This document shows, piece by piece, positions 16,996 to 35,374 of a stretch of DNA of 64,000 nt. The stretch covers positions 1,313,001 through 1,377,000 of the forward strand of contig NZ_CP040710.1 in the NCBI RefSeq assembly GCF_005943945.1. Direction: 5' to 3'. This DNA is from Aggregatimonas sangjinii. Lineage in GTDB: Bacteria; Bacteroidota; Bacteroidia; Flavobacteriales; Flavobacteriaceae. A program made the position numbers and the translations under genes. The notes beneath the pieces were generated by a model that did no database searches, had not been told where the DNA came from, and worked only from the letters and a program-made list of their open reading frames with translations. Within the stretch, counting starts at the first letter, position 1; every line of letters starts with the position of its first letter.

Positions 16996-17040
16996 CAAAC
17001 CTATGTTTTTAAAGGTTATTAACCATCCTGTGCTGTCCTG
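16996..17040 (-). promoter_or_regulatory. Promoter and operator of the sulfatase-GH78 operon
   Basis: On the minus strand the -7 element is TAGGTTTG (16996-17003), matching Bacteroidota TAnnTTTG. Exactly 20 nt upstream ends CAGGACAGCACAGGATG (17024-17040), the motif shared with the susC and rhamnose-operon promoters. The motif occupies the place of the usual -33 element. The predicted leader is about 75 nt. An activator or repressor binding here is inferred, most likely the GntR-type protein encoded at 34.2 kb. Confidence 0.6.
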
Positions 17041-17180
17041 AAAGGGCTATACTGTGAAGGCCGGTTTTGCAAGTGGCAATACAAGGAAAAAACCTTTAAT
17101 TTTTTTTGGATACGGAACCGATTTTAAAAATTAAGGAATGGTTTCCGAGAACAGATAGAAAGTACGTGAATATCGCGCTT

Positions 17181-17756
17181 TCAAGTTTTGTGCTTTTCGT
17201 CAAGCAATGTTTTTATGATTTCGGACGGAAGCATCCTTTCAGTATAATTTGCCTCTACATGGGCCGTTGTAATTATTCGCTGCCTATTGATGATAAAGGT
17301 AGCCGGAACAGGTAAGGTTTTGGAGCCATCCGCATTCAAGAGGGTTAAATCACGTCTTTTATGGTACCCTATCCCGGGATCGAACTGAAGACGATAATCC
17401 TTTATGACTTGCTGGTCCGCATCACTCAGGACCTCAAAATCAAGATGATTCTTTTCCGTTAGGGTCAGTGCATCATCAGGTTTTTGGGGACTAATGGCCA
17501 ATACTACCGCGCCCAAGGCTTTAATTTGCGGTAGGGATGCTTGTATGGCCCTTAAATCCAGGTTACAGATAGGGCACCATTCACCTCGGTAGAATTTCAG
17601 AATAACATGGCTCGATTTTACTACCTCTGAAAGCGAAATCATTTTGCCGAAAGCGTTTGGCAAAGTGAAGTCGGGGGCTACATCCCCAGCTTTCAATCCT
17701 TTTACATGGGAAGCATTTGCGATAACCAACTTTTGAAAATCCTGTAGTTTACCCAT
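17181..17756 (-). CDS. Peroxiredoxin-like (AhpC/TSA) protein
   Basis: A 191-residue cytosolic thioredoxin-fold protein without a signal peptide. KAGDVAPDFTLPNAFGK and FYRGEWCPICNLDL are characteristic of the AhpC/TSA peroxiredoxin-like family. Cys61 is in the peroxidatic position and Cys64 makes a CxxC pair, as in the peroxiredoxin-like group rather than classical 2-Cys peroxiredoxins. LPVPATFIINRQRII follows, as expected. It would reduce peroxides or thiol substrates. It follows the sulfatase gene by about 110 bp on the same strand and is not obviously part of glycan breakdown. It may simply be a housekeeping gene within the locus. Confidence 0.88.
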   Translation of the reverse strand: MGKLQDFQKLVIANASHVKGLKAGDVAPDFTLPNAFGKMISLSEVVKSSHVILKFYRGEWCPICNLDLRAIQASLPQIKALGAVVLAISPQKPDDALTLTEKNHLDFEVLSDADQQVIKDYRLQFDPGIGYHKRRDLTLLNADGSKTLPVPATFIINRQRIITTAHVEANYTERMLPSEIIKTLLDEKHKT

Positions 17757-17823
17757 AACTGTTGTTTTGAATCGATATAAATTTTATAGTGAAAATAACA
17801 TTTTGATTATGAAGTTTTTATCC

Positions 17824-17838
17824 ATCGAAAATTTCGAT
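17824..17838. promoter_or_regulatory. Palindrome ATCGAAAATTTCGAT upstream of peroxiredoxin gene
   Basis: A perfect inverted repeat (7-bp arms around one base) about 70 bp before the peroxiredoxin start and 28 bp after the preceding sulfatase stop. It has no T-run on either side, so an operator is more likely than a terminator. The binding protein is unknown. Confidence 0.3.
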
Positions 17839-17865
17839 AGTTTCCTGAAGGTTCGTCTGCTGTAT

Positions 17866-19326: not shown

Positions 19327-19497
19327 ATGTTCAAATGATTTATAACCAACTTGTGTGGAGGATTAAACTCATACTATCCTAAAATACAAACTTGCAGCTA
19401 AGAGATTTAAAGATTGACGTTATAAATCTTCCGTTGTGAATTATACGAAGATTTTTTTGAAAATAATTAAAGTGTTTTGTTCGGTTTTTAGAATCGA

Positions 19498-19515
19498 GCA
19501 GGGTAGTGCAGGACA
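19498..19515 (+). promoter_or_regulatory. Degenerate copy of the shared operator motif
   Basis: GCAGGGTAGTGCAGGACA on the + strand resembles the (A/G)GTACAGGAT(A/G) motif of three other promoters in this window. Its orientation points toward the terminator hairpin at 19.6 kb, away from the sulfatase gene. Twenty nt downstream lies TAATATTA, which keeps only part of the -7 consensus. Regulation by the same protein is uncertain. Confidence 0.3.
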
Positions 19516-19567
19516 CTTTTATTATCAATTAGTAGTAATATTAACTAAGAAGAGTAGTTAACTTCTT

Positions 19568-19587
19568 TTGAGTTAGTTTGAGTTAGT
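19568..19587. repeat. Tandem repeat, two copies of TTGAGTTAGT
   Basis: Two perfect adjacent 10-bp copies, one helical turn apart, just before the terminator hairpin. They could be a protein-binding site or the 5' part of a short transcript; nothing more can be said. Confidence 0.5.
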
Positions 19588-19590
19588 ATT

Positions 19591-19625
19591 AAAGGGATGA
19601 AAAGTTCAATTTTCATCCCTTTTTT
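19591..19625 (+). terminator. Intrinsic terminator hairpin
   Basis: A perfect 13-bp stem (AAAGGGATGAAAA, 19591-19603, paired with 19610-19622) around the 6-nt loop GTTCAA. On the + strand the T-run is six long (19620-19625). On the minus strand it ends in only three T's, yet that side would terminate the isomerase/dehydrogenase operon ending at 19669. It may work in both directions. Confidence 0.7.
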
Positions 19626-19668
19626 CGTTTCTAAATACTGATTTTGCAAACTAACCATCTTCTCCTAT

Positions 19669-20814
19669 CTAGTCCACGTTTTTCCAACTTCTACTATTTG
19701 CCGATGCAATTACAGCCTCACACACTTTTTGCGTTTCATAGGCATCTTCGAAAGTCGGAGCGCATGGGGCTTCCGATTCCAAACTCTTGAGAAAGTCGGC
19801 CACCTGATGTACAAAGGAATGCTCGTACCCGATACTCAAACCTGGAACCCACCATTTGTCCATAAATGGTTGGTCACCATCCGTTACATGTATGGATCGC
19901 CAGCCGCGCACTATAGATTCATCCCTATGGTCAAAATATTCCAGCCTATTTAAATCGTGTAAGTCCCATCTGATGGAAGCATGCTCCCCATTTATTTCGA
20001 AGGTATACAGGGCCTTGTGGCCTCTGGCATAACGCGTCGATTCAAAAAGACCCAAAGATCCGTTTTCAAAATGACAATGAAAGATACAAGCATCATCAAT
20101 ATCGACTTTTTGCACCTTTCCGGTTGCTTGATGCACGCGCTCTTTGATAAAGGTTTCGGTCATGGCCGAAACATCTTTTATAGTACCATTGAGCCAAATC
20201 GCGGTATCTATACAATGCGCCAATAAATCGCCCGTAACGCCGGAACCGGCAGCGTCTGCATCGAGCCGCCATAGGCCTTCCCCGCCTTGCGGTAATTCTG
20301 GACTAATGGTCCAATCCTGTAAAAAATTGGCGCGATAATGAAATATCCTACCTAATTTTCCAGAGTCTATCAGTTGTTTTGCCAAAGTAACGGCAGGAAT
20401 ACGGCGGTAATTGTACCAAACCGTGTTTTTAATCCCAGCCTTTGCAACGGCTTCCACCATTTTTTCGCCTTCTTCAAGAGTACGCGATAAGGGTTTTTCG
20501 CATAATATCATTTTACCAGCCTCAGCAGCTGCGATTGCGATTTCGGCATGCATATCATTAGGGGTACATATATCTACCGCGTCGATATCGTCGCGGGCAA
20601 TTAGTGCTTTCCAATCGGTTTCCCAGGATTCGTAACCCCATTGTGTGGCAAAAGCCTTGACCTTGTTTTCGGTTCTGGAACAGGCTGCTTTTAAAACGGG
20701 ACGATATTCCAAATCGGGAAAAAAATTGGAAACCCGATTGTATCCGTTCGAATGGGTTCTTCCCATAAAGCCGCATCCTATCAATCCTATTCTAAGTTCT
20801 TTCTTGTTTGCCAT
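19669..20814 (-). CDS. Cytosolic Gfo/Idh/MocA-family sugar dehydrogenase
   Basis: A 381-residue NAD(P)-dependent oxidoreductase without a signal peptide. The Rossmann motif [19 protein letters not shown] is at the N-terminus, [32 protein letters not shown] contains the family EKP lysine, and [21 protein letters not shown] supplies the His/Asp active-site segment. It probably oxidises or reduces a sugar, perhaps at C3, as in the 3-keto-sugar dehydrogenases and inositol dehydrogenases of this family. It is the last gene of a tightly packed set with two TIM-barrel isomerases, a cupin, a DUF4432 protein and a DUF1080 lipoprotein, which suggests that it handles an imported keto- or anhydro-sugar. 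The exact substrate is unknown. Confidence 0.9.
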
Positions 20815-20877
20815 AATCTATTAAAGTTTTGTTTCGTTAGAAATCATATAAAGTACAGATACGAATGCTTCGAACTC

Positions 20878-21906
20878 TTAATTCCAACCATGTAGTTCAC
20901 GAACCTTTATCAGGGTTGTCAAAATATCATTCCACGTCTGCTGTTTTGTAAGTACTGCGTTATCGAACATGCAACCATCCCAGCAAATGTGTTCGAAGGC
21001 TTTGGTCAGTGTTCCATTTTCATTACGAAGCCAGAAACCGGCATCGTTCGCTACATCAAGTTTACCATTCGGGTCCGTGGCCAAACAATGGCGACCGGTT
21101 TTATCATGTGATCCGGTCCCGTGCACAGTACCGTCATTTTGGGCTACATGAAAATCTATGGTCCAAGGACGGAGAGCATCCGTAACTTTTTTCAATGCCT
21201 CGGTCAATGTTTGGCGGTCATTCCAATCGAAATCTTGAGGGAGTATGCGATGTTCAGGAGCGTTATAGCCTAGCAAGTAGAGTAAAGTGTGGGACATATC
21301 GGCTTGAAAACCGATATTTGGTCGGTCTACCGCCTCTAAGGTATCTACCATGGATTTCCAACTGTGCATCCCACCCCAGCATATTTCGCCCTCTGCTGCC
21401 AGTTTTTCATCGTAATCGGCAGCCACGTCGCATGCTTCCCTGAACGTTTTCGCTACCAATTTGGTGTTGCCAACGGGATCCTTCGCCCATTCTTCGGGGC
21501 TGGAAGCGGAATCGATACGAATTACACCGTATGATCGTACGCCATGTGCCCTTAGGACTTTCCCGAAATGGCATGATTTGCGAACCATTTCTACAAAAGT
21601 CTTACGGTCATCATCACTACCTAGTGTAGGACCACCCCAAATCGGGGCTACCAAGCTTCCGACCTTTAGGCCGTGACTGGCAATCTTATCCGCTATTCTC
21701 TTTATTTCGTCATCGGAACTGTCGATATTAATATGGGGGTCCAAAAGGCCTAAATCCACACCGTCGAACTTTATACCGTCTACTTCGGCTGCAGCGGTCA
21801 TTTCCAACATCGTGTCAAAGGATATGGGTGGTTCAGAGTCAGGACCTTTGCCAACTATCCCAGGCCATGTCGCGTTGTGTAACTTTGGAAAACTATTATT
21901 TTGCAT
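20878..21906 (-). CDS. Sugar phosphate isomerase/epimerase-like TIM barrel
   Basis: A 342-residue cytosolic protein of the xylose-isomerase-like AP-endonuclease 2 superfamily. [15 protein letters not shown] starts the barrel, [18 protein letters not shown] and [19 protein letters not shown] bring probable metal ligands (Glu, Asp, His), and [26 protein letters not shown] adds the C-terminal His cluster. Members isomerise or epimerise sugars and inosose-type keto compounds. It lies 63 bp upstream of the dehydrogenase gene and 29 bp downstream of the cupin gene. A second, distinct isomerase is encoded at 24.2 kb in the same operon. The fold call is good; the reaction is unknown. Confidence 0.85.
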
Positions 21907-21935
21907 ACTTCTGTTTTTAAATTAAAAAATCTTGA

Positions 21936-23144
21936 CTACAACTTCAAATCCGGATTTTCGGGGCCAAAATGTTTTAGCATGACGATGGGGTCCGTACTGC
22001 TATGGTTGACAATGGTAACCCCTTCTTTTGCAGCTTGCTCGGTCACAAAATATTCGTCATGTGTCAATTGTCCATACCGTATCAAAGTGGGAGTTTCTAT
22101 ATCCCAAACCCCCATCTTGCCATGCCCTTGCATCATGATCATTCCATAACACGCATTGTCCTTTACGGTTACCGTCTCTCCCGGTAGCACCGTTAGTTCT
22201 TTGGCGCTAAAGGCATCGGAGCGGTAACAGACCCATTTGTCAACATAACCTTGCGCTTCCATTTCTTCCATTGGCGCTACGGGTATCGGGTTCATAAATC
22301 TGGTTTCCAGCATATTGGGGTCGGTATTCAATTCCCAGTCGATTACCTCCATCAGTTGGTCAAAGTCACCTATGCGATCTTTCGGCGTACCATTCCACAA
22401 CAATTCCTCCGGGATTATGGCCTCGTTTACCAAAGACTGGTACATGGCGAATACATCGGAAGCTTTTTGCGGTTCGTAGGTACACATACTGCCAGGCGCA
22501 TGTAGCATTCCCGGGGGTACATCCCAACCCGTTCCAGGCTCTAGCCGGAAAGCGGATGAGAAATTGGTGATTTTGTTGTCGCCTTTAGTAAAATTGACCA
22601 AACACTCACGAATCTGTTCTTTGGTGGTGCCTGGGCTTATGCCAAAAAAGGTATAAGGGAAATCACCTCCGTGGTTATTTACCTGTGGCGGAAAGTAATA
22701 CGCCTCGGGCTTTCCCTTTTGCCCGATTTTCGCCGCATGTTCGTCATTATGATGTATATGGTGGGGGAGTGGCCCCATATTATCGAAAAACTTGGAGTAC
22801 ATGGGCCAGCTTTCATATGCGTTCCATAAACGGTCGCCGATGATTTTTCCTTTTAATTCATCGATAACGTCTTTTAATAGAATTTGAACTTCTTTACCGT
22901 CGTCCTCTACAACAACAGGACTTAAGCCTTCATTTTTCCCGGTCAAGGGGCCGTTCTCAGTGGGTGTTGTCGAAGAGAACCAACGCTCGTCTATACCTCC
23001 TCGTGCGCCACCCAAAACATAGTAATCGTCTGGATGCAATTTGATTCTTCTACCTGGTACGCAAAAAGACCGTGGGACCCATGTGGGTGCCAACCGTAAA
23101 ATTCCCTTACCTTGTTCCAAGGCTTTTTCTGCCAGTGTTGCCAT
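21936..23144 (-). CDS. Cupin protein, phosphomannose-isomerase-like
   Basis: A 402-residue cytosolic protein. MGPLPHHIHHNDEHA supplies a His-rich metal site, GKPEAYYFPPQ the Glu, and DVPPGMLHAPGSMCTYEPQ the following His of a type I mannose-6-phosphate-isomerase-like cupin. A second, weaker beta-barrel follows (LTVLPGETVTVKDNACYGMIMMQGHG). It might isomerise an aldose/ketose pair or another sugar intermediate. No phosphate-binding signature was found, so the true substrate need not be mannose 6-phosphate. It is packed with the DUF4432 gene (20 bp) and the isomerase (29 bp), which places it in the same pathway. Confidence 0.75.
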   Translation of the reverse strand: MATLAEKALEQGKGILRLAPTWVPRSFCVPGRRIKLHPDDYYVLGGARGGIDERWFSSTTPTENGPLTGKNEGLSPVVVEDDGKEVQILLKDVIDELKGKIIGDRLWNAYESWPMYSKFFDNMGPLPHHIHHNDEHAAKIGQKGKPEAYYFPPQVNNHGGDFPYTFFGISPGTTKEQIRECLVNFTKGDNKITNFSSAFRLEPGTGWDVPPGMLHAPGSMCTYEPQKASDVFAMYQSLVNEAIIPEELLWNGTPKDRIGDFDQLMEVIDWELNTDPNMLETRFMNPIPVAPMEEMEAQGYVDKWVCYRSDAFSAKELTVLPGETVTVKDNACYGMIMMQGHGKMGVWDIETPTLIRYGQLTHDEYFVTEQAAKEGVTIVNHSSTDPIVMLKHFGPENPDLKL

Positions 23145-23164
23145 AGTATGTTTTATAATTTATT

Positions 23165-24232
23165 TTAAAATTCGGTTCTAAATGCTTCTATTTTTTCGGG
23201 TGAAATCACTTCTATATCCAAGGAATAGCTTCTCCTTTCCCCGGGCTCCAGAAAAATAAGGTTGCCCTCTTTTCGCGCTTTCTTCTGGCCGATTGGCGGA
23301 TTCGTTGCGGGTTCGAGCGCCGTGACGTATTCATTTTTGCCCCAATGCTGCCAATTGATCAACCAGGGTAACTGCTTCTTGGGAAAGCGAACGGCTACGG
23401 CAAGATTCAGTTTCTTGTTGTATAGGCCACAGTTAGACTGCCCATTCCCATCGGCATCGACATCGATAAATGCCACGTCTTCGCCCGAACCCGAATGCGA
23501 TTCCATCGGTGGAGGGCAAACGCGATAGCTACTACCTTCCTTAAAAATCTTTTGATCGGAATCGGGAGTAGGTGAACGCCATGATCCTTTCCATAGGATT
23601 TCCGTTCCTTCGTCAACTAGTGGCCAACCAAAATTGACATGATACAGCAGCATATGCGGTACTTCTTCGTTACCGCGGTTAACTACTTCATCCTGAACAC
23701 TTATTTTAGGTTCCCCCAATTTCCCGGAAATCGTTCGTTTAAGTTCTAAAACAGGACCGAACACCTGTGCTTCCCGTACTATTCCTGTAACGCTCATCTC
23801 CATTTTACCTGCAATGGGATCTGGCTGTACTATCGAAACAATTTCTGCAGGGGTGTTGCTGATACGCCCGTGTAGGCCGCGCGTTCCATATTCATCGTCT
23901 TCCGGTCCGCCTACATGCGACAGTCCGCAAGTGGTAAGCAATCCACCGCCGAAATTGCGTATCCACCCCATACCCGTATCGGAAAAACGCTCCGGTGGGG
24001 TTGTTCCTGTATGACTTAACCATGCCAAACTGTGCTGGTTGTGGAAAGCTTCTCCAATATCCATCGCCCGATCTAGAATTACTTTGTAGCGTAGACCGGT
24101 TCCAGTATTAATCCAAGCGATACGCGTACCACGGCCAAGACCATTATCCAATATAGAAGTCTCTATACCGCCAATTTGTGCTACATTAGAGATTTTATCT
24201 TTACCGGTATGTATGAAATCCGTATTCGACAT
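23165..24232 (-). CDS. DUF4432 family protein (aldose-epimerase-like fold)
   Basis: A 355-residue cytosolic protein. GRGTRIAWINTGTGLRYKVILDRAMDIGEAFHNQHSLAWLSHTG and FGGGLLTTCGLSHVGGP fit the DUF4432 family. Its fold is that of galactose mutarotase, and it usually sits with sugar-acid or keto-sugar catabolic genes. LLYHVNFGWPLVDEGTEILW and NWQHWGKNEYVTALEPATNPP are the later conserved blocks. It may act as a mutarotase or an epimerase on the sugar handled by the neighbouring dehydrogenase. Only 6 bp separate it from the upstream isomerase gene. The family is recognised from pattern; no activity can be assigned. Confidence 0.82.
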   Translation of the reverse strand: MSNTDFIHTGKDKISNVAQIGGIETSILDNGLGRGTRIAWINTGTGLRYKVILDRAMDIGEAFHNQHSLAWLSHTGTTPPERFSDTGMGWIRNFGGGLLTTCGLSHVGGPEDDEYGTRGLHGRISNTPAEIVSIVQPDPIAGKMEMSVTGIVREAQVFGPVLELKRTISGKLGEPKISVQDEVVNRGNEEVPHMLLYHVNFGWPLVDEGTEILWKGSWRSPTPDSDQKIFKEGSSYRVCPPPMESHSGSGEDVAFIDVDADGNGQSNCGLYNKKLNLAVAVRFPKKQLPWLINWQHWGKNEYVTALEPATNPPIGQKKARKEGNLIFLEPGERRSYSLDIEVISPEKIEAFRTEF

Positions 24233-24238
24233 CAGCGT

Positions 24239-25090
24239 TTAAACGGCATGTTTTTGAATCATTTCTTGAATAAATTTAAATCCCTTCTCTGCCATATCCC
24301 AGGGATGGGCGAACTCGCGCCATACATTGATCGAATTTGCAAAATCAACATCGTTCCTGGTAAAACCTTCAATGGTATACCAGCCGTCATATTTGCTTTT
24401 CGCTAAGGTCGAAAAGACTTCATCCCAAGGAATGTGCCCTGTGCCCGGAGTACCACGATCGTTCTCACTAATATGTACATGTGCCAGATATGGTGCAATC
24501 GTATGAATGGCTTCGTCTAATTTTTTTTCCTCAATATTCGCATGATGGGTATCGAACATTCCTTTTACGTTCGGATGATTTACTTTTTGCAACAGGTGTT
24601 TTAGTTGCTCCATGCTATTGCACAAATAGCATTCGAATCTATTCAATGCCTCAGGAGTTATGATAAGGTTCGTCTGTGCCGCATAATCTCCAGCTTTACG
24701 CAACACTTCCGCGCTCCAATCGTACTCACTTTCCTGTGGGGCTTGTTGCGCAAAAGTGGCAAAGGCGGAATGCGTAGGACCGGCCAGTACTTCGGCATTC
24801 AGATCATGACACCGATCGATGATCCATTTGAGACGTTCAACAGCCTTGGCTCGAACCGTCGGTGAAGGGTCTATGGGGTTTTCCTCGGGACCGACCACCG
24901 TTACCGCGGTTACTTCCAAGTCAATATCTTTGGCGTGTTGCCCAAGTCGCTTGTAATCCGAAACGTCCGGGGCTCCTATAAAAAATTCTACACCATCATA
25001 GCCGATATTCTTCAAACGATCCATAATCGGCAAGAGGTCTTCCGAAACCCCCGCCGACCATGCCAAAACGTCAAAGCCTATCTTGCTCAT
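24239..25090 (-). CDS. Sugar phosphate isomerase/epimerase, TIM barrel
   Basis: A 283-residue xylose-isomerase-like barrel. YDGVEFFIGAPD, GMFDTHHANIEEKKLDEAI (Asp/His metal ligands), AHVHISENDRGTPGTGHIPW (His, Glu) and YDGWYTIEGF (Glu) follow in the order seen in D-tagatose/D-psicose 3-epimerases and inosose isomerases. A C3-epimerase or keto-sugar isomerase is therefore the best guess. It is cytosolic. It starts 4 bp after the DUF1080 gene and ends 6 bp before DUF4432, so the three are almost certainly co-translated from one mRNA. That linkage with a 3-keto-glycoside hydrolase family member favours a keto-sugar substrate; this is inference. Confidence 0.88.
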   Translation of the reverse strand: MSKIGFDVLAWSAGVSEDLLPIMDRLKNIGYDGVEFFIGAPDVSDYKRLGQHAKDIDLEVTAVTVVGPEENPIDPSPTVRAKAVERLKWIIDRCHDLNAEVLAGPTHSAFATFAQQAPQESEYDWSAEVLRKAGDYAAQTNLIITPEALNRFECYLCNSMEQLKHLLQKVNHPNVKGMFDTHHANIEEKKLDEAIHTIAPYLAHVHISENDRGTPGTGHIPWDEVFSTLAKSKYDGWYTIEGFTRNDVDFANSINVWREFAHPWDMAEKGFKFIQEMIQKHAV

Positions 25091-25094
25091 GGGA

Positions 25095-25898: not shown

Positions 25899-26222
25899 AT
25901 TTCTTTAGTTGGAATTAATAGTTAGGCAACATACAAGCCGTATGAATCGGCTACTGGGATACTTTTTTGACCTAAGAAATTCATATGGATTTTGATAGAA
26001 AATTCCGATTTCTTTTCCGATTCCCAATCCCTATTGTAAATTACTTGTTCATTGAAAGTGATGACCTTTTACTTATGAAGATGAAAGTCGATTACATTTT
26101 TCACTCCTCTACCTAGTAGTTCACCAATCAATTTTTACTCTAGGATGACAATTTATAAAAAACGAATTCATCTTTGCAATTCTTTCAACGCCCCACAATT
26201 AGAATTGGATTATCAATTTCAA
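25899..26222. other. Non-coding gap between the SusCD series and the DUF1080 block
   Basis: No gene and no full -7 element was found. A direct repeat TTCCGATT occurs at 26003-26010 and 26015-26022, 12 bp apart, and could be a regulator site. The DUF1080 operon may be read through from susC or have its own promoter here. Confidence 0.4.
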
Positions 26223-28931
26223 TTACTTTCCGGTATCATCTATAGCGGTTTTGTAAATTGAATTTTCGGGATTACCTCCTGCAATCAAATAAGCCAATAA
26301 ATCTTTGACTTCCTCATCATTTAATCGGTTGATCGTACCCGGCGGCATCAATGATACCGTTGACATTTTTGTACTTGCAACATCACTTTTAGGAATGCTT
26401 CTGATGACATCCGGCGCGTACGGATTTTGGGAAATTTTATAGGTATCACCCTCTTCGCTGATTAATCTACCTACAATCGAACTGCCATCATGCAATGAAA
26501 ATACAGTAGAATTGTATTGATCGGAAATTACCTCATTCGGATTTATTATCGACTTGAGCATATCTTCAGGAGAGAAGCGCGTACCGATTTGTGTGAGTTC
26601 CGGACCAATATTCTGTCCCTCTCCTCTCATGGCATGACAGGTAACACAGTTTGTCGCCAAGTACATATTCCTACCTTGTTCGAAGTCTCTAACTCCTAAT
26701 CCTTCAGCAAGTAAGGGTTCAATATCTTCTTCCGTCCAATTCTTTCTAGGACCTTTGGGCTGAATGGCATTGCCGACGAGCTCGTTTCCCGAACTGCTCA
26801 ATAAAGAATCCCCGGACATTTGATTGTATAACTCAAACTGATTCTCTGATATCTTGGCTAGAGCGTTTTTTCGGGCATTATCGACAAAACCGATATAACT
26901 TCTTCCCGCCTTGTAGGAGAACGCCTTATGGAACCATTTAAAGTATTTCTCGCGGAGTTCGGGTGTCCATCCGTTTTTGGCATCACTCAGTACATTCCCA
27001 TAATAGGTGCTTTGGGCCGGTGGCATATTTTTCAATGTTTCGGCAATCGCCATTCCGTATTGAGGATTCCTTAAAATAAGGTCCGCCGCCTCAGTGGCCG
27101 TATTGGCCATGACGTCTGCATTTTCACCAAGAGGTTTTTCCAATAGCGCAATGGTTTTGGAAATTACGGAAGGTTCTCCGACATAAACCAATGTTTTACT
27201 CAACAGCTGGTTCAATACATCGGTCTTAGCAGGATAGTGTGATGCCAAGTAGTTACCGATTTTTTGTTCAATGTTCGGTCTAGCTTTTCCCATTCGGGAA
27301 AGGACCAATTCGATGGCGCGTACTAAGTCTACCTGTTTTGCTGTACTTAAGCTAGCAAAATCAATTTCGGTCAAAGTATTTATTAGTTTTTCTTGCTGAC
27401 CCGAATCGCCTTGTCGTGCCAAAGCAACGGCAGCGTGAATTTTCTTGGCGGCTTCTTTTTCTTCATATACCCGATTCTCCCATATAGCTGTGGGTTGATG
27501 CTCAATAGCGATACGGGCAGCATATTGTATAAAGCGGTCATCACTATCAAGAAAAGGCCACGCTGCTTCGACCGCGCCTTCCTTGGCACCGGAATGGTAG
27601 CTTTCCAATTCTTTTCTAATTTTATTGGTTTCCGTTTGTTCTAGAGCGATATGTTCGGTGGGAATTTCCTCTTTATCGCCATCGAAATACACTCGGTAGA
27701 GGTCGGAGTCGATACGTCGCCCCCCTGTCATAAAATACATAGCGCCATCAGGCCCTATAACACCATCGGTAAGAGGTAGTGGAAGTCCAGAAAGAAATTC
27801 TTCCTTGGTACCGGAATATGAAGACCCTTTTGTTTCCAATTCCATGGCGTATATAATTCCAAAACTCCAATCAAAAGCGAAAATACTCCGACGGTATTTC
27901 TCAGGAAATTTTGCATTCATCCCATAGATAACGTTGGTCGGGGAACCTTGCCCAATATTCATAACAGGAGGTAGGTTGTCCGGGTAAGCCGGAGACCATT
28001 TACCATTCCCGGTACGCCAGCCAAATTCCGAGCCGCTCGTAACGTGACAGATTCGGGTGGGACGGTACCAAGGCATCCCCAAATCCCATTCCATGTCAGA
28101 GTCGTAGACGAACATATCTCCCAATTCGTTAAAGGCCAAGTCGAAAGGATTGCGAAAGCCTGCCGATACCAATTCCCAGTTTTTTCCTTCCGGGTCTATA
28201 TTGGCGACCCAACCGCCTGGAGCACCTCGGTCATTGGCGTGGCCTCGCGGATCTTTTATCTTGTACAGAAGATTGTCATCTTCCCAATTCTGGGGTAGTC
28301 GATAGCTGTCCATCTCAGGTAAATCCGTGTGATTTCCCGCAATAACGTACAATGACTTTTCGTCAGGTGACAAAACTATGCTGTGCGGCCCGTGCTCCCC
28401 TGCGCCATCAAGCGATTTTAATAGCGTAACCGTATCGTACTCGTCATCATTGTCTGTATCCTGCAAACGGTACAGGCCACTGGTTTTCTCAAACTCCTCG
28501 TTGCCCCTATGGTTCACCATCACATACAGACTGTTGAAGGCATATAACAGCCCCTGTGCATAACCCATTTGAATAATGGAATCGGCCACCGGCTCGGCGG
28601 TTTGAATCTTAAGCTTCTCCAACTTGGAAATACTCTCGCCAGATCCTACGGGTGGAATTTCCATACGGTATAGCGCACCGTATTGATCTGATGTGATCAA
28701 TCTATTCTTATCATCGAAAGTCATGGCTACCCAGGACCCTTGGTCATTTTCAGAAGGACTGTAAAGATGTTCTGCCTTGAAATCGGACTGTAGCTTAAGC
28801 TTTGCTAATTTGGGGGGCAATTGTTCCGCGACATCAGTTGTGCCTTCCTCGACACAAGAAATCAATACCATCATCGATAAGGCCGTCAGTACATATGAAC
28901 TACATCTTCCCGTAAAAGTCTTTCTACTCAT
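26223..28931 (-). CDS. Beta-propeller / HEAT-like / cytochrome c lipoprotein
   Basis: A 902-residue lipoprotein (lipobox LISC). Residues about 50-400 read as a propeller of the PQQ-dehydrogenase-like or membrane-bound dehydrogenase N-terminal type (NRLITSDQYGALYRME, DKSLYVIAGNHTD, GFRNPFDLAFNELGDMFVYDSDMEWD, GPDGAMYFMTGGR). An alpha-helical HEAT-like region follows (about 420-700). A C-terminal cytochrome c domain contains CVTCH near residue 760, GPELTQIGTRFSPEDMLKSIINP and a late MPPG. Such proteins, common in Planctomycetes and Bacteroidota, are thought to pass electrons from sugar oxidation to the respiratory chain. The stop of SusD lies 13 bp upstream, so it belongs to the SusCD mRNA. The actual substrate is unknown. 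Confidence 0.88.
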   Translation of the reverse strand: MSRKTFTGRCSSYVLTALSMMVLISCVEEGTTDVAEQLPPKLAKLKLQSDFKAEHLYSPSENDQGSWVAMTFDDKNRLITSDQYGALYRMEIPPVGSGESISKLEKLKIQTAEPVADSIIQMGYAQGLLYAFNSLYVMVNHRGNEEFEKTSGLYRLQDTDNDDEYDTVTLLKSLDGAGEHGPHSIVLSPDEKSLYVIAGNHTDLPEMDSYRLPQNWEDDNLLYKIKDPRGHANDRGAPGGWVANIDPEGKNWELVSAGFRNPFDLAFNELGDMFVYDSDMEWDLGMPWYRPTRICHVTSGSEFGWRTGNGKWSPAYPDNLPPVMNIGQGSPTNVIYGMNAKFPEKYRRSIFAFDWSFGIIYAMELETKGSSYSGTKEEFLSGLPLPLTDGVIGPDGAMYFMTGGRRIDSDLYRVYFDGDKEEIPTEHIALEQTETNKIRKELESYHSGAKEGAVEAAWPFLDSDDRFIQYAARIAIEHQPTAIWENRVYEEKEAAKKIHAAVALARQGDSGQQEKLINTLTEIDFASLSTAKQVDLVRAIELVLSRMGKARPNIEQKIGNYLASHYPAKTDVLNQLLSKTLVYVGEPSVISKTIALLEKPLGENADVMANTATEAADLILRNPQYGMAIAETLKNMPPAQSTYYGNVLSDAKNGWTPELREKYFKWFHKAFSYKAGRSYIGFVDNARKNALAKISENQFELYNQMSGDSLLSSSGNELVGNAIQPKGPRKNWTEEDIEPLLAEGLGVRDFEQGRNMYLATNCVTCHAMRGEGQNIGPELTQIGTRFSPEDMLKSIINPNEVISDQYNSTVFSLHDGSSIVGRLISEEGDTYKISQNPYAPDVIRSIPKSDVASTKMSTVSLMPPGTINRLNDEEVKDLLAYLIAGGNPENSIYKTAIDDTGK

Positions 28932-28944
28932 AAAGTAAAGTTTT

Positions 28945-30438
28945 TTAAAAATTAGGATTTAATTCCGATTCGGAAGAAGGTAATGCATAACGTTCCCTAA
29001 TATTGGTAAAGGCGTTTCCAGCTGCCGGCACCCCTTCAGGAAGGTAATAATCGTTAGGATTGTTTATCACCCTGTTGCCAAACTCCGTCATTACCTGAAT
29101 AGCAATGCCTTTTCTCAATAAATCGAACCAGCGTTTATTCTCAAAGGCCAATTCTACGCGACGTTCCCTGAAAATGGCATCGCCCAAGTCTCCGGTATGG
29201 GCTCCCAAGCCAGCTCGAGTACGAACCTGATTCAAATAGGTTATCGCTTCACCATCCTTACCCTGCTCTTCCAAAGCCTCCGCCAAAAACAATAAGACTT
29301 CGGCATAACGGTATACGGGAAAGTTCATACCGTGATTGTTATGTAAAGCATGAGGCTCTACATATTTTTTAATAATGGGATAGATGCCATCGTTCCAGAA
29401 ACTTTCTCTGGTTTCGATATACATGATGGAACCATCCTCTCTTAAATCGCCATCCTCGTAGGCTGCGATAATATCCGGTGTGGGAATATTGTTTCCTTGT
29501 CCGTTTATGGGTTGTGGATCGGCCGTACCGAATAATGCTCCAACCTCATCCGCTTCAATGGGCCGAGGGAGAAAATTGTACATAAAGTTACCTTGAACCC
29601 CTTCGGCTCCCTCTCTATACTGTATCTCGAAAACCGACTCCATGTTGTTCTTGTTGTCGCTATTCCCTGAGAATGCATCTTCGTAATCAGGCATAAGCAT
29701 ATATTCACCGCTATTGACCACTGCCTTTAAAAGTGTTTCCGCTGCGGCCCACTCCTGTAATACAATATAAACATTGGCCAAAAGCGTTTGTGCAGCCCCC
29801 GAAGTAACACGACCTGGTTCTTGTACCGATTTAGGAGGTAGCAGTGGAATCGCAGCTTGGGCATCTGCAATGATTTGAGGATATATTACATCTGGCGAAG
29901 ATAGTGGTAACGCTGCGCCTTCGCGATCCAGTACCGGTTCAAGATGAAGCGGTACCGATCCATAAAACTGTACCAAGTCAAAATAGGCAAAGGCTCTTAA
30001 GAATAGGGCTTGGCCTTTAACATTATCCTTTACGGCTTGGTCTATTTCAGCATCGTCTACGGTTACTAAAATCTGATTGGCGCGAGCTACTATCGCGTAT
30101 AATTGTCGATACTGGTTTTGAACATTGGAATTGGGTGTAATACCGTCATCGGTAATCATCGAGTGATCGGCGATGTCTTGGTTATTTTCCGTTGCCCCAA
30201 AAGCGGTATTTCTCGCAAAATATGTATTATCAGAGCTCATTTCGGCCATGAAAGGTTTTGTTTGATTGTACATCGTTCGTAAGGGAGCATATGTTCCATT
30301 CACGGCTTGTACAAAATCGTCTTCTGTTTGGAAGAAGGTCGGTACACTTAGAGAATCTTCGGGAAAGACATTTAACTCGTCTTCACAACTTATTGCAATA
30401 AAGCAGATAAGACCAAGGAATATGATTATTTTTTTCAT
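28945..30438 (-). CDS. SusD/RagB-type glycan-binding lipoprotein
   Basis: A 497-residue surface lipoprotein (IAISC lipobox) that caps the SusC channel and captures oligosaccharides. NVFPEDSLSVPTFFQTEDDFVQAVNGTYAPLR is the classic N-terminal segment. ALFLRAFAYFDLVQFYGSVPLHLEP matches the TPR-like helix, and FAYRYAEVLLFLAEALEEQG-type helices with RRVELAFENKRWFDLLRKG form the C-terminal SusD domain. It follows susC by 53 bp and precedes the cytochrome lipoprotein by 13 bp. Its ligand should be the rhamnose-containing sulfated glycan degraded by the surrounding enzymes, which is inferred from the gene neighbourhood. Confidence 0.97.
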   Translation of the reverse strand: MKKIIIFLGLICFIAISCEDELNVFPEDSLSVPTFFQTEDDFVQAVNGTYAPLRTMYNQTKPFMAEMSSDNTYFARNTAFGATENNQDIADHSMITDDGITPNSNVQNQYRQLYAIVARANQILVTVDDAEIDQAVKDNVKGQALFLRAFAYFDLVQFYGSVPLHLEPVLDREGAALPLSSPDVIYPQIIADAQAAIPLLPPKSVQEPGRVTSGAAQTLLANVYIVLQEWAAAETLLKAVVNSGEYMLMPDYEDAFSGNSDNKNNMESVFEIQYREGAEGVQGNFMYNFLPRPIEADEVGALFGTADPQPINGQGNNIPTPDIIAAYEDGDLREDGSIMYIETRESFWNDGIYPIIKKYVEPHALHNNHGMNFPVYRYAEVLLFLAEALEEQGKDGEAITYLNQVRTRAGLGAHTGDLGDAIFRERRVELAFENKRWFDLLRKGIAIQVMTEFGNRVINNPNDYYLPEGVPAAGNAFTNIRERYALPSSESELNPNF

Positions 30439-30491
30439 TTTTATAATTTTTATTTATCGAACTGAGTGATTATCTAAAGTTATGCTTTTAC

Positions 30492-33400
30492 TTAGAAATT
30501 GAGGCTTACACCAATATTTACTATTCGTGGTATCGGATATCCTGAGATATCTACCCCAGGAGCTAGATTTCCGCCATCGCCTTGTCCGTTGTTTTGAACG
30601 CTGATTTCGGGGTTTGGTCCGCCCCAATATTTTGTAAATATGTGCACGTTCTGAATAGATCCATAGATACGGGCCGATTTAAAGTATTCTTCCAGTCCTG
30701 GAATCGTATACCCTAAAGTAATGTTTCTAATATTGAAAAAAGAGGCATTTGCCACGAAACGATCGTTGATCCAATCCCTTTCAATACCTGTTACCCTGCC
30801 GCCACCGACAGTGGTACCATAAAAACCATCACCAGGATTATCAACTGATCTGAAGCGGTTTTCTACATCTTTTAAAAGGTTGAATACTCCATCTAAGTTT
30901 GTTGTACTGAATAGGTGCCGCACTAATACCTCATTACCCTGAGATCCTGTACCTATGATCGAAAAATCCCAATTACCGTACGTTATTCTATTGGTGATAC
31001 CATAGGTGAAGTCTGGAAACGGATTTCCGGTGATAGCTCGGTCATCGTTGAGTCCTCCTCTTGTTATGACCCCATCGCCATTGACATCAATTAGTTTGAT
31101 ACTACCAACGGTGGATCGGCCAGGTACCTGCGGTGAACTATCCAAATCGGCTTGATTTAAATATACTCCGTCGGATAAATGCCCATAGAATTGCGCAAAC
31201 GGTTGTCCTACTTGGGTGATGTGCCAGCCACCCGGGCCAAAGACTTGATCGATACCATCGGCCAAGGCTACAACTTCATTTCTGTTAAATGAAATGTTGG
31301 CATTGGTGGTCCATTTGAATTTTCCCGTAGTATTTACTGTGTTTAAAGCAAATTCATGTCCCCAGAATTTGATTTCACCAATATTATCACTGAAATTGGA
31401 GAAGCCCGACTCCCTAGGCACTTGAATATTGAACAGTAGATTGGTGGTATTTTTTGTGTAGTAATCATAAATAAAAGAAACCCTGTCGTTAAAAAGGCTC
31501 AAATCAAGTCCAATGTCAAACTGCTCCGTTGTTTCCCACCCCAGATTTGGATTGGATAAGGAATTCACGGCGGCGCCCGGCGCAAACGTATCACCGAAAA
31601 CCGCGGGAACATTGTTGTCTATTAAAGCATATTGCGTGTAGTTACCAATATTAAAGTTACCGGTAACGCCCCAGCTTCCTCTCAATTTCAGTAATGATAT
31701 CGTATTCGAATCTTCTAAAAAAGATTCGTCGGAAGCAATCCAACCGGCCGAAACGGAGGGAAAGGTACCCCATCTGTTGTCAGAACCAAATCTAGAAGAA
31801 CCGTCGCTACGTATTGCAGCCGTTAATAAATACTTACCCTTATAATTATAGGTCAACCGTGAAAGTGCGGACACCAGAGTGCTTTCTTGAATTTCGTCAA
31901 AAGTCTGGTTTCCTCGCCTATCTATATTCACCGCTGTTTGAATAAAAGGTAGACGGTCATCTGGGAAATCGGTAGCACGTATTCGGCTTCTATCCGTTCT
32001 AAATTTTTGATACATAAAACCTCCTAAAATAGAGAAATTATGATCTCCAATTGAATTGGTATAGGTAATCGTATTCTCATTAACCCAATTAAATCGATCT
32101 CTATTGTCCCAAATACCTACATTGTTCGTGGGTATGGGCCGGTTTATTGCATTAGTAGCATTTGTTGGACTAAAGAACGTGGAATTCCTTTGGTAGAACT
32201 CGGCATTTAAGCTAGATTTTATACTCAGCCCACTAATAGGTTTAAACTCTATATAGGCATTGGAGAGTATGTTAAGGTCCCTATCTTCATTTTTTATACG
32301 CTCCGCCGAATTTAACCAGTTGGCGTAAGCGAATATGTTTCCGGTATCTGCCGGGAACCTGTTGAATTCGGTTCTAGTACCATCAGGATTGTAGATAGGC
32401 ATTATTGGCCAAGTGTGCAGGGCGTTGAAAAGGATACCCGTACCCCTTGTACCATCAGTTGCCGGGTCATTTCGAATTACCCAGCTAGGGGCAACATTTA
32501 CCCCTATTTCGACTTTGTCGGACGGATTATAGGCCATATTAGCCCTCAAAGTAACTTGTTGAAAGTCACTGCCTAAAACGACACCGTCTTGTTTTGTTAA
32601 GCCGGCAACAAGTGAAGAACGAAATTTTTCCGAACCACCGGAAACTTGTAAATTATAGATGGATATTGGTGCCGTACGTAGCATGGCATCGTACCAATCA
32701 TTGGTCTGTCCTTCATATTGCGAAGGATCTTGAAAAATATCAGGTACAGGATCACCCTGATCTTCGTAGTACTCTTTTTTGAACTGGGCAAATTCAACCG
32801 CATTCATCATTTCTAACCTACCGCGCTGCGGTACGCTTTGGAGACCTGTAGATATATTCAAACTAACATTGGTCTTACCTACCTTACCTTGTTTGGTAGT
32901 AATCAATACAACGCCATTGGCCGCCCTTGAACCATATAAAGAGGTCGATGCCGCATCTTTTAAGACAGTAATATTTTCAATTTCTGCTGGATTTATATTA
33001 TTTAGGTTACCCGCAATCGGAAATCCATCTACTACATATAACGGGTCGCTACCTCCTGAAATCGATAATTGTCCTCTTATACGAACGTTCATACCCTCAC
33101 CAGGGACGCCTGTGGTCTGATTAATTTGAACACCGGCTAGTTGTCCTTGTAGTTTTTGGGCAACCTGTGTTACTGGAATATCGGCCAGTTCGGTTAAGTC
33201 TACTGTCTGAACCGAGCCTGTAACCTCTCTTTTAATTTGTGTACCGTACCCTACCAGTACTACTTCGTCTAAGGCGGTAGCATCTTCGGACATTACCACA
33301 TCAATGGTATTTCTACCATTTACGGGTACTTCCTGGGTTGTGAAGCCAATGTATGAGAACACCAGTGTACTGTTCGCATCGGGCGCTACAATACTGTAAT

Positions 33401-33596
33401 TACCATCAAAATCGGTAACCGATCCTGTCGTTGTGCCCTTTACCAAAACGTTTACTCCGGGCAATGGCCCAACGCCATCTCCTGAGGTGACAGTACCGGA
33501 AACAGTTATACTTTGAGCATGTAGCGAAATACCGAAAAGCAGAACAAAAGCAAAGAGAAAACTTCTCCCCGAACTTCTAATTGATGTTTTTTTCAT
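30492..33596 (-). CDS. SusC/RagA-type TonB-dependent outer-membrane transporter
   Basis: An outer-membrane oligosaccharide importer. The frame opens at 33665, but the -7 promoter element lies at 33663-33670, so the start must be downstream. The ATG at 33596 (or 33602) gives a normal signal peptide ending SLHAQ. After it comes the carboxypeptidase-regulatory-like beta-domain (GVNVLVKGTTTGSVTDFDGNYSI). The plug follows (EVVLVGYGTQIKREVTGSVQTV, ASTSLYGSRAANGVVLITTKQGK), and then a long beta-barrel ending IVNIGVSLNF with terminal aromatic residue. It is the first gene of the SusCD operon and is preceded by a promoter with the shared operator motif. Confidence 0.97.
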   Translation of the reverse strand: MKKTSIRSSGRSFLFAFVLLFGISLHAQSITVSGTVTSGDGVGPLPGVNVLVKGTTTGSVTDFDGNYSIVAPDANSTLVFSYIGFTTQEVPVNGRNTIDVVMSEDATALDEVVLVGYGTQIKREVTGSVQTVDLTELADIPVTQVAQKLQGQLAGVQINQTTGVPGEGMNVRIRGQLSISGGSDPLYVVDGFPIAGNLNNINPAEIENITVLKDAASTSLYGSRAANGVVLITTKQGKVGKTNVSLNISTGLQSVPQRGRLEMMNAVEFAQFKKEYYEDQGDPVPDIFQDPSQYEGQTNDWYDAMLRTAPISIYNLQVSGGSEKFRSSLVAGLTKQDGVVLGSDFQQVTLRANMAYNPSDKVEIGVNVAPSWVIRNDPATDGTRGTGILFNALHTWPIMPIYNPDGTRTEFNRFPADTGNIFAYANWLNSAERIKNEDRDLNILSNAYIEFKPISGLSIKSSLNAEFYQRNSTFFSPTNATNAINRPIPTNNVGIWDNRDRFNWVNENTITYTNSIGDHNFSILGGFMYQKFRTDRSRIRATDFPDDRLPFIQTAVNIDRRGNQTFDEIQESTLVSALSRLTYNYKGKYLLTAAIRSDGSSRFGSDNRWGTFPSVSAGWIASDESFLEDSNTISLLKLRGSWGVTGNFNIGNYTQYALIDNNVPAVFGDTFAPGAAVNSLSNPNLGWETTEQFDIGLDLSLFNDRVSFIYDYYTKNTTNLLFNIQVPRESGFSNFSDNIGEIKFWGHEFALNTVNTTGKFKWTTNANISFNRNEVVALADGIDQVFGPGGWHITQVGQPFAQFYGHLSDGVYLNQADLDSSPQVPGRSTVGSIKLIDVNGDGVITRGGLNDDRAITGNPFPDFTYGITNRITYGNWDFSIIGTGSQGNEVLVRHLFSTTNLDGVFNLLKDVENRFRSVDNPGDGFYGTTVGGGRVTGIERDWINDRFVANASFFNIRNITLGYTIPGLEEYFKSARIYGSIQNVHIFTKYWGGPNPEISVQNNGQGDGGNLAPGVDISGYPIPRIVNIGVSLNF

Positions 33597-33662
33597 AATC
33601 ATGTTTTTAGGTTGTAAGTTATTTAGGTTCCCAACGAAAGAAACTCTAACGTTGTAGTTACT

Positions 33663-33727
33663 CAAATATACTTGGCTATTTTCATACTGCCATCCTGTAC
33701 AATGCTGTACTATACCGCACTGTCCTG
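33663..33727 (-). promoter_or_regulatory. Promoter and operator of susC
   Basis: On the minus strand TATATTTG (33663-33670) is a perfect TAnnTTTG -7 element. Exactly 20 nt upstream lies GTACAGGATG (33691-33700, read on the minus strand), followed further upstream by AGTACAGCA and CAGGACAGTGCGGTA (to 33727). So the site has two or three half-repeats, more than at the other two promoters. The predicted start of transcription near 33655 gives a leader of about 60 nt. Confidence 0.65.
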
Positions 33728-34171
33728 AAAAAGTTAATTAGATAATCTAAACTGTTTGGTAAACAATAAGTTACATTTGTCAAAGTAACTACAGCCTTGT
33801 TTTTTTGCTAGTTTGGGACTCTGAGGAGATGCAATCACCTAAGCGATGGATATTGATAGGAAGCATTATTCAGTGACATGTTTTCCTCATGCTTGGATTG
33901 ATATCCTGAATTATGTCCTCCCCTTCTGATAGTGTTGGCAGATCAATAGTTTGTCACTGCAAGGATAATATAAGTCTATGTTAATGATTAGAAATATCGC
34001 AAAGCGAATACAATAGCTAAAACATGAAAATTTATGCTTAGCGATTAGTATAAACCAAAGAATGATTTAGTTATCGCCACTAAATCGCTAGAATCCTACC
34101 AATAAGAAGAATTTGAAGTGGTGGAGCTGGCAAAGATGCAGCAACTAATTTAGGAAATAAGCCCCTGTAAT
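33728..34171. other. Non-coding stretch between susC promoter and GntR gene
   Basis: About 440 bp with no supportable gene, RNA or strong hairpin. It is AT-rich and contains stop codons in all frames at short intervals; it may hold further upstream regulatory sites for susC. Confidence 0.4.
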
Positions 34172-35218
34172 CTAAAGCGAATTTCGATCTATAAAATTGA
34201 AAGGGTTTTTGACTTTTCCTTTCTTTTTATCCATAATCATATGGGCCGCGGTTTCACCCATCGCCCTAAAGTCGGTAGAAATACAAGTTATGCCCAAGAG
34301 TTGTTTCAGGGGGGTATCATTATAGGAAATAACACCGATATCCTCTCCCAAAGTAAATTCCTGATTACGGATTTGGTTGACAAGGTTTACCAAGTCTGAT
34401 TCCCCGATCGTAATAAAAAGATCACCTTTCCTCAGTACGATATCATCAAAGATTTCTTCCAATACCTCAAAGTCGATGGAATGCTCGATACAGAATTTGC
34501 GAAACCCGTGCAATATTCTTTTCGGATAGGGGTAGACCGAATTTTCTGGGTAGGCGATAATCAATTTTTCATATTTCGAAATCTTCGTCAACCCTGCTTG
34601 TAAAGCATTATAAATATCGTTCTCAAAATCCTGATAAATTTCAATAAAGGCCCCCTTTATCTTGGAAATAGGGTTATCCATAATAATCAGCTTGTTTTTT
34701 GGAATCCCATCAATGGCCTTGATGACTTCGGGGGTAAAGCTTACGTGCTTCAATTCATCGGTCTTAAAGTGCGGCATAATGACGTAAAAATCATAAGCGC
34801 CTCTATTTTTCTCTAAAAGGTTTAGGAAAAGGTCTTCCTCACAATGATAAATGTGCAAATCGGTATGCGCCTTGCCGCTGATACTATTCACGAACGAATT
34901 GTAGATACGCAACTTATAGGAACTCAATTTATTGATCAAAAAGAGAATATTGACTTTGGAAATTAATTTTGTACGAGTTATGTAATATCCTTTTCCCCTT
35001 ATGGATAAAATTACTTTGCGTTCCTTTAGTATGTTATAGGCCTTTTCGACCGTATCTCTTGACAGGAGATATTCTTCGCTAAAAAGGTTTATCGAGGGAA
35101 TCTTATCATCCATCTTTAAGTTCCCTGCGGAAATATTATCGATGATCGCATCTACTATCTGCTTGTATTTGGGTACCCTTGAATCCTCTTTAATTTTGAT
35201 GTAGTTGAAAATATCCAT
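34172..35218 (-). CDS. GntR-family regulator with LacI-like sensor domain
   Basis: The winged-helix GntR DNA-binding domain is at the N-terminus (VPKYKQIVDAIIDNISAG, KIPSINLFSEEYLLSRDTVEKAYNILKERKVI, GKGYYI). A periplasmic-binding-protein-like domain, about 230 residues, follows with KVNILFLINKLSSYKLRIYNSF and GVISYNDTPLKQLLGITCISTDFRAMGETAAHMI, as in LacI family C-termini. It would bind a sugar or sugar phosphate, probably from L-rhamnose. The ATG at 35218 is preferred over that at 35278, because the longer form adds 20 residues before the HTH and a near-consensus minus-strand -7 element (CATCTTTG, 35276-35283) lies inside it. It is divergent from the rhamnose operon, and the shared operator lies between the two. 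Confidence 0.9.
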   Translation of the reverse strand: MDIFNYIKIKEDSRVPKYKQIVDAIIDNISAGNLKMDDKIPSINLFSEEYLLSRDTVEKAYNILKERKVILSIRGKGYYITRTKLISKVNILFLINKLSSYKLRIYNSFVNSISGKAHTDLHIYHCEEDLFLNLLEKNRGAYDFYVIMPHFKTDELKHVSFTPEVIKAIDGIPKNKLIIMDNPISKIKGAFIEIYQDFENDIYNALQAGLTKISKYEKLIIAYPENSVYPYPKRILHGFRKFCIEHSIDFEVLEEIFDDIVLRKGDLFITIGESDLVNLVNQIRNQEFTLGEDIGVISYNDTPLKQLLGITCISTDFRAMGETAAHMIMDKKKGKVKNPFNFIDRNSL

Positions 35219-35328
35219 TGGCTGAGGTCGCTTAGTATTTAAATTTATCGAATTGTACATAATTTGGGGTAGTGCCAAAGATGTAAATCCCTATTCCTTA
35301 AAAGTAAACAATTTTATTTTTGAAGCAA

Positions 35329-35374
35329 GCGGTACAGTACAGGATAGAATACCACGCTGTATATTTTATTTTCG
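35329..35374 (+). promoter_or_regulatory. Operator and promoter of the rhamnose operon
   Basis: GCGGTACAGTACAGGATA (35329-35346) matches the operator motif of the susC and sulfatase-GH78 promoters. Exactly 20 nt downstream is TATTTTCG (35367-35374), one mismatch from TAnnTTTG. The predicted leader is about 20 nt. The site lies between the divergent regulator and catabolic genes, so autoregulation is also possible. Confidence 0.6.

Follow-up and report, generated by a model that had tools for sequence, protein, structure and literature searches.

The stretch of DNA analysed here (the window, 64,000 nucleotides long) corresponds to C1:1313001-1377000, C1 being the single contig of the 4.72-Mb genome of Aggregatimonas sangjinii, a member of the Flavobacteriaceae. 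It holds the genes of rhamnose catabolism (rha), a susCD pair, a sulfatase–alpha-L-rhamnosidase fusion and, beside the rha genes, the gene of a regulator with GntR and LacI-type domains (Table 1). An earlier note had described a motif ending in CAGGAT(A/G) at one fixed distance from the -7 promoter element in front of three of these units, and had attributed it to the adjoining regulator gene. The three sites (A, B and C) are present letter for letter, and in each case the octamer of the -7 element follows CAGGAT(A/G) after exactly 20 nucleotides (nt). The pattern ACAGGATR-N20-TANNTTTG is found without mismatches at sites A and B, and with one, in the -7 box, at site C.

While these three sites are all real, the window also contains a fourth strong site, site D, which had not been listed. 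A matrix of the operator plus the -7 box, whose training regions take in the window, recovers four window sites at 27.6-33.8 bits, followed by a match of 15.8 bits, which is part of the array at site B, and one of 11.4 bits; the reversed matrix gives no window match of 10 bits or more. Site D is a strong orphan operator on the plus strand, flanked by two minus-strand genes, with no open reading frame (ORF) downstream on the same strand for 15.9 kb (mechanical ORFs of at least 100 amino acids), and may be a relic or a small-RNA promoter.

The upstream halves of the sites had been reported to match in pairs, and the letters are indeed exact, with TTTCAGGACAG at 17033-17043 and 33720-33730, and GCGGTAYAGTACAG at 33705-33718 and 35329-35342. 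What does not hold is a single register: counted from the promoter, CAGGACAG stands second at site A and fourth at site B, while CGGTAYAG stands second at site C and third at site B. The pairwise matches arise because the units of a 10-bp tandem repeat recur in different registers.

Structure of the Operator

A matrix of the operator alone, without the -7 box, was iterated on two regions of the genome of A. sangjinii, the gene regions of four relatives (G132, G145, G002 and G044), and other GntR loci. It converged on CAGKAYAGTACAGGATAG, that is, CAGGAYAG twice, head to tail, with a period of 10 bp. This matrix finds 191 sites of at least 13 bits in 1,006,310 bases, in comparison with 10 for the reversed matrix, with sites in the same context being counted once, here and in the count of array lengths. 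A chance origin of the sites is rejected by the control counts in the window, the genome, and this 1.006-Mb set.

The CAGGAYAG unit is present at offset 0 in 70.5% of 190 sites, and at +10 in 98.4%, whereas the inverted unit is found in 0-0.5% of the sites at five in-phase offsets, so that a palindromic operator is rejected. The 10-bp period would place all the units on one face of the helix. The operator may also be longer than two units. Of 250 operators whose -7 box matches at four or more of the six letters, 235 have two units, four have three, ten have four, and one has six, with an off-phase control for the third unit of 4 in 1000. In each of the ten named loci that hold a longer array, a SusC homologue with 68-86% identity to that of the window begins 110-151 bp past the start of the array, although this set takes in orthologous susC promoters of related genera and its number is not one of independent events. 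The longest array found, with six 10-bp units, lies before a susC homologue in a metagenome-assembled genome of Maribacter sp. (L181, position 2818). A second four-unit array of the A. sangjinii genome (C1:1307757-1307812, in L033) lies before another susC, and adjoins the divergent site of a GMC oxidoreductase–GH106–GH3 unit.

Distance to the -7 Box

The sigma-A -7 element of the Bacteroidota is the octamer TAnnTTTG at -12 to -5 (PMC9723704). A box with at least five of its six letters starts exactly 19 nt after the operator at 125 of the 190 sites (37 of them perfect), a count that is not wholly independent, as the operator matrix was seeded with 24 sites found using the -7 box. The other offsets have such a box in a mean of 1.0% of the sites and a maximum of 5.8%, with only two of the 190 at 18 nt, and four at 20 nt. 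With the octamer at -12 to -5, the operator covers approximately -49 to -32, and the base profile shows no separate -33 element, in agreement with the earlier claim that the motif replaces it.

A further test of the spacing used 80 named loci, of which 78 hold a site of at least 15 bits. Three of these loci overlap the training sequence in part (L172, L175 and L182) and one wholly (L224), and the scan was therefore repeated with the 76 loci that have no sizeable overlap. Here, 74 loci have a site, with 184 sites in all against 13 in the control, and the -7 box stands at 19 nt for 104 of the 184, the next largest count being 11, at 39 nt. Peaks at 29 and 39 nt, seen in the 80-locus scan, are due to the longer arrays. 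These tests of the spacing are all matrix scans; the pattern scans used below to compare helix and operator require the 19 nt.

An operator over the -35/-33 place, at one fixed distance from the -10/-7 box, is the arrangement of a class II activator, and the exact spacing together with the absent -33 element suggests that the reader of the operator is one. The same protein on the same operator could act instead as a repressor of promoters that need the -7 box only, from which the sugar would release it, and most of the named GntR-LacI and GntR sugar regulators are in fact repressors, such as AraR of Bacillus subtilis, by its PDB label, and NanR (PMC8012715). A repressor needs neither an exact distance from the -7 box, which is all but lost one nucleotide to either side, nor an operator in the -33 place, which makes this alternative unlikely.

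A fixed distance between two blocks would also be expected if they were the -35 and -10 boxes recognised by an alternative sigma factor. This explanation is rejected as extremely improbable, given that the downstream box has the usual sigma-A sequence, TAnnTTTG (PMC9723704), while the upstream block is a 10-bp repeat, sometimes with four or six units, which varies with a helix of the GntR protein, as described below.

The Candidate Regulator

The protein encoded beside site C begins with a GntR winged helix (PF00392, 41 bits against a cut-off of 27) and ends in a domain of the LacI/periplasmic-binding fold (PF13377, 31.8 bits against 26.5), while the NCBIfam profiles give no match above cut-off. 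Its start, the ATG at 35218, was chosen because the orthologues align from there. The best AlphaFold2 model, from 20 sequences, has a predicted local distance difference test (pLDDT) score of 81 and a predicted template modelling (pTM) score of 0.62, with the other four models at pLDDT 50-70, and is nearest to LacI-family regulators, several of them with sugar bound. The protein is 81-85% identical to those of Maribacter antarcticus, Kriegella sp., and several Zobellia species. Flavobacterium johnsoniae (L206) also has an orthologue, next to which lies a site. The protein is referred to below as RhaR-GntR.

An orthologue of at least 58% identity is present in 28 of 149 genomes of the family, with the next best homologues at no more than 43%. 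All 28 of these genomes contain the pattern of operator plus -7 box (at most one mismatch), with 239 matches against nine for the pattern read backwards. The other 121 genomes have 19 matches, in 15 genomes, against 17 in the backwards control, and six of these 19 are in G020, G064 and G108, which have rhaEW and a diverged GntR gene. The co-occurrence of gene and motif has a Fisher p of about 1e-19, with the relatedness of the genomes ignored.

The covariation of helix and operator is, at the level of sequence, a better argument than co-occurrence for the GntR protein as the reader of the sites. At the sites in front of rhaEW and susC in G108, the letters are CTTAACAGTACAGAACAC and CAGAACAGTACAGAACGG, and the spacing is unchanged, while in other families the units turn into CATAAC, CATGAY or CAGAAY, often in both halves at once. 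For 169 GntR loci, which include close relatives and perhaps one species under two labels, the operator was compared with the recognition helix of the GntR domain, taken as the stretch after SRDT, using a pattern that admitted all the variant letters; 108 of the loci have a site with at most two mismatches. A VEKAY or IEKAY helix is accompanied by a proximal CAGGA at 117 of 117 sites, a VVKAY, IVKAY, IVRAY or VVRAY helix by CAGAA at eight of eight, and an AEKGY helix by CATGA or CATAA at four of five. The adjoining gene is thus the best candidate for the regulator, as had been proposed, on the evidence of both co-occurrence and covariation.

Some other DNA-binding protein might nevertheless read the sites, with the GntR gene being a mere neighbour, as regulators of the AraC, hybrid two-component, and DeoR types typically bind direct repeats (PMC3870299, PMC3878776), and the competing genes tested, one AraC and one LacI, are only a part of the regulators of this genome. 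The AraC gene of the window (45704-46834) has a homologue (expectation value, E, of 1e-30) in only two of the 28 motif genomes, and a LacI gene 44 kb to the left of the window (L031:5983-7005) in eight (E of 1e-90), the genome of A. sangjinii being included in both counts, and both were rejected. Together with the co-occurrence and the covariation, this leaves a different reader improbable.

A CAGGAYAG-type repeat was found near none of ten loci of "galactose"-type GntR paralogues (36-41% identical), a label that is a guess from a neighbouring transporter-like reading frame. A second GntR group (L073-L082, 36-41% identical) has, by eye, ACYRGTACCYACYRGT-like repeats 10 bp apart in its own promoters, and may represent a further regulon of the same protein type.

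The Regulon

An extended pattern, with up to two mismatches, occurs at 20 places in the 4.72 Mb of the genome, against three in the control. Sixteen of the 20 lie within two regions of rhamnose genes, at 1.268-1.349 and 3.594-3.615 Mb, and the four outside are at 3542207, 4373240, 2290190 and 4352147; the matrix adds sites 3589185 and 3594541. The motif is not, then, scattered at random through the genome, an outcome that the earlier note had set against its own proposal. A short pattern with one mismatch has 12 places outside the two regions, of which 11 were discarded, with less than 13 bits by the extended matrix, while the twelfth, 3542207, has 34.4 bits.

About 20 sites lie before susC, GH78 or GH106 rhamnosidase, sulfatase, transporter, uronate, and rha genes (Table 1), which supports, well beyond the first three sites, the proposal of one common regulator for uptake, desulfation, and catabolism. 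Intergenic DNA makes up 6-9% of six regions, yet holds 113 of their 124 sites, and 105 of 122 sites are followed within 250 bp by an ORF on the same strand (mechanical ORFs, as above), in comparison with 7.6% of random positions. The combination of rhamnosidase, sulfatase, and uronate genes suggests an ulvan- or rhamnan-like substrate.

Table 1. Operator sites, the candidate regulator, and the genes of the window and the genome that lie behind the sites (window positions; seven-digit numbers are positions in C1).
Feature	Position	Strand	Description
Site A	16996..17040	-	operator 17023-17040, units CAGGACAG, CAGGATGG; -7 box TAGGTTTG at 16996-17003; 33.8 bits; target sulfatase-GH78 gene 13392-16913
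Site B	33663..33727	-	four-unit operator 33690-33727 (CAGGACAG, CGGTATAG, CAGCATTG, CAGGATGG), 10-bp period; -7 box TATATTTG at 33663-33670; 30.2 bits; target susC
Site C	35330..35374	+	operator 35330-35347 (CGGTACAG, CAGGATAG); -7 box TATTTTCG at 35367-35374; 33.7 bits; target rhaEW
Site D	19499..19543	+	units CAGGGTAG, CAGGACAC; TAATATTA in the -7 place; 27.6 bits
Candidate regulator gene	34172..35218	-	348 amino acids; GntR DNA-binding and LacI-type domains (PF00392, PF13377)
rhaEW, bifunctional rhamnulose-1-phosphate aldolase/dehydrogenase	35401..37506	+	TIGR02632 953.7 bits, NF006191 1364.8 bits, both above cut-off
L-rhamnose isomerase	37591..38871	+	TIGR02629 match below its cut-off
FGGY kinase, probably rhamnulokinase	38882..40255	+	
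Flavin mononucleotide-dependent (lactate-type) dehydrogenase	40265..41416	+	PF01070
Last gene of the rha unit	41429..42844	+	no family match; probably a sugar transporter
susC-like receptor behind site B	30492..33602	-	Plug, CarboxypepD_reg domains
susD-like protein	28945..30438	-	PF07980
Sulfatase–alpha-L-rhamnosidase fusion behind site A	13392..16913	-	PF00884, PF17389
GH78 alpha-L-rhamnosidase	29..2614	+	site at C1:1312764-1312808
susC-like genes	1267657, 1274065, 1307767		behind these sites, as behind site B
Site 3597578	3597578		probably susC-like, gene crosses the locus border; then susD- and GH78-like genes
Site 1274143	1274143		PSCyt/DUF1549 protein
Site 1279984	1279984		sulfatase
Site 1307615	1307615		GMC oxidoreductase, then GH106 and GH3
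Site 1312764	1312764-1312808		26.1 bits; just left of the window; target GH78 gene 29..2614
Site 3594541	3594541		GH78; site inside a mechanical ORF, so that the true start must be further downstream
Site 3594474	3594474		GH78-like gene and two sulfatases
Site 3589185	3589185		DUF5722-CBM3 protein
Site 3605244	3605244		MFS transporter and sulfatase
Site 3614178	3614178		two genes without annotation and a sulfatase
Site 3614546	3614546		second rhaEW copy
Site 3542207	3542207		PF05426 lyase and two sulfatases
Site 4373240	4373240		SDR, UxuA, KduI, SDR, DUF4861 and DctP genes; pattern match only

The operator and rhaEW are present in a second copy, at C1:3614546-3616728 (L035:14547-16729), which is 98.6% identical to window positions 35330-37512 over 2183 bp. 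The similarity runs from the very first operator base to 6 nt past the rhaEW stop codon, which looks like the recent transfer of a gene together with its switch. Behind the susCD pair of the window, at 19669-28931, lie genes for a Gfo/Idh/MocA oxidoreductase, a sugar isomerase-like protein, DUF4432, 3-keto-disaccharide hydrolase, and cytochrome c proteins, a run that looks like a 3-keto-glycoside route within the rhamnose locus. In the relative G132, approximately 20 matches to the operator pattern are spread over 200 kb of one contig (C7:162495-364661), and the matrix finds 31 sites of at least 15 bits in C7:160001-370000.

Proposed Mechanism

The motif is proposed to be the operator of the neighbouring GntR-LacI-type protein, RhaR-GntR, which would bind the repeat as a dimer and act as a class II activator in response to a rhamnose-type signal, with a probability of roughly 0.7. 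A dimer would occupy two units, head to tail, with the proximal unit at approximately -39 to -32, in place of the -33 element. The LacI-type domain would bind the effector, for which a rhamnose-derived ligand is the simplest guess, and the ligand-bound protein would then hold the RNA polymerase at promoters that lack the -33 element. One cytoplasmic signal could, in this way, induce the scattered rhamnan- or ulvan-type loci, with their genes for uptake, desulfation, GH78 and GH106 enzymes, as well as some uronate catabolism and the rha operon itself.

A number of observations weigh against this proposal. The rhaEW gene is found in 33 of the 149 genomes, that is, the 28 with the orthologue and five others with a GntR homologue of 41-43% identity within 13 kb of it, so that rhaEW has a GntR homologue in 33 of 33 genomes and co-occurrence alone cannot separate the regulator from the pathway. 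Few evolutionary changes underlie the covariation of helix and operator, and its strict code is broken when three mismatches are allowed, with a proximal CAGAA at L143 and L144, which have a VEKAY helix, and at L251, which has VERAY. In addition, 61 of the 169 GntR loci have no site with at most two mismatches within 900 bp, some of the GntR genes not being beside a target, and there are rhamnose-linked GntR loci without any site, such as L141, L142, L233, L234, L236 and L238. In the operator itself, a unit-like match is also present at +5 in 36.8% of the 190 sites, which would not be expected of a simple 10-bp repeat, and 65 of the 190 have no five-letter -7 box at 19 nt.

A broader claim is favoured by a narrow margin, namely, that RhaR-GntR belongs to a class of GntR-LacI activators found in at least four Bacteroidota families. 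These proteins would bind as stacked dimers to 10-bp head-to-tail repeats of two, four or six units, stand in for the -33 element, and let one cytoplasmic rhamnose signal drive whole rhamnan/ulvan networks, the largest with 20 or more promoters. Part of an amino-acid-to-base code would be readable, with VEKAY paired with CAGGA, VVKAY with CAGAA, and AEKGY with CATRA.

Relation to Known Systems

AraR of B. subtilis is also composed of a GntR DNA-binding domain and a LacI-type domain, and its sites are palindromic. The relatives of the candidate with solved structures include this DNA-binding domain, and the two proteins have in common a GntR winged helix and a LacI-type sugar domain; AraR differs in being a repressor, by its molecule name in the PDB, whereas the sites described here are direct repeats with a 10-bp period and a single exact spacing to the -7 box. 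Direct repeats are bound by other GntR-family proteins, such as NanR, FarR and NagQ (PMC4494728; PMC8012715), and three NanR dimers of Escherichia coli, for example, occupy (GGTATA)3 (PMC8012715). NanR is, in contrast, a repressor of the FadR subfamily, with a different sensor domain, unit, and period. A survey of GntR motifs describes palindromes, from which FarR, NagQ, NanR and the MocR types depart, and includes a single Bacteroidetes factor (PMC4494728). The MocR-type regulators (GabR, TauR and PdxR) combine a GntR domain with direct repeats and activation (PMC5320631), but have an aminotransferase-like domain dependent on pyridoxal phosphate, and repeats two or three helical turns apart, whereas the C-terminus of the candidate matches PF13377.

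The known RhaR regulators, which belong to the AraC, DeoR and LacI families, are likewise in control of rha genes, and differ from the candidate, a GntR protein, in their family. The site before rhaEW in the window (site C) is accompanied by sites beside rhaEW in the relatives. The sites of the DeoR-type RhaR are imperfect direct repeats at 10-11 bp, and the survey of rhamnose regulons that describes them names AraC, DeoR and LacI regulators, with the word "GntR" absent from its main text (PMC3870299). The RhaR of Bacteroides thetaiotaomicron is of the AraC type, with a single target operon (PMC3878776). In Bacteroides, SusR and the hybrid two-component systems also control polysaccharide utilization loci, with SusCD and glycoside hydrolases, through direct-repeat sites, but the repeats are described as approximately 21 bp apart (67 or 77 bp for SusR), rather than 10 bp, and here one soluble regulator would serve many loci. 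In the open-access literature searched, without RegPrecise, subscription journals, and supplements, no GntR regulator of rhamnose or ulvan genes was found. The domains and the principles are known, and it is their combination, with this regulon, that was not found described in that literature.

Biological Significance

If the proposal is correct, it would provide a regulator, its sites, and a list of targets for the use of rhamnose-rich polysaccharides, of the ulvan or rhamnan type, in many marine and soil flavobacteria. It would also offer a model for studying activation at the unusual promoter of the Bacteroidota, including what stands in for the -33 element, and the way in which a GntR winged helix reads direct, rather than inverted, repeats, with natural variants available for specificity swaps. 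It would show, too, how loci scattered through the genome may be tied together by one monosaccharide signal.

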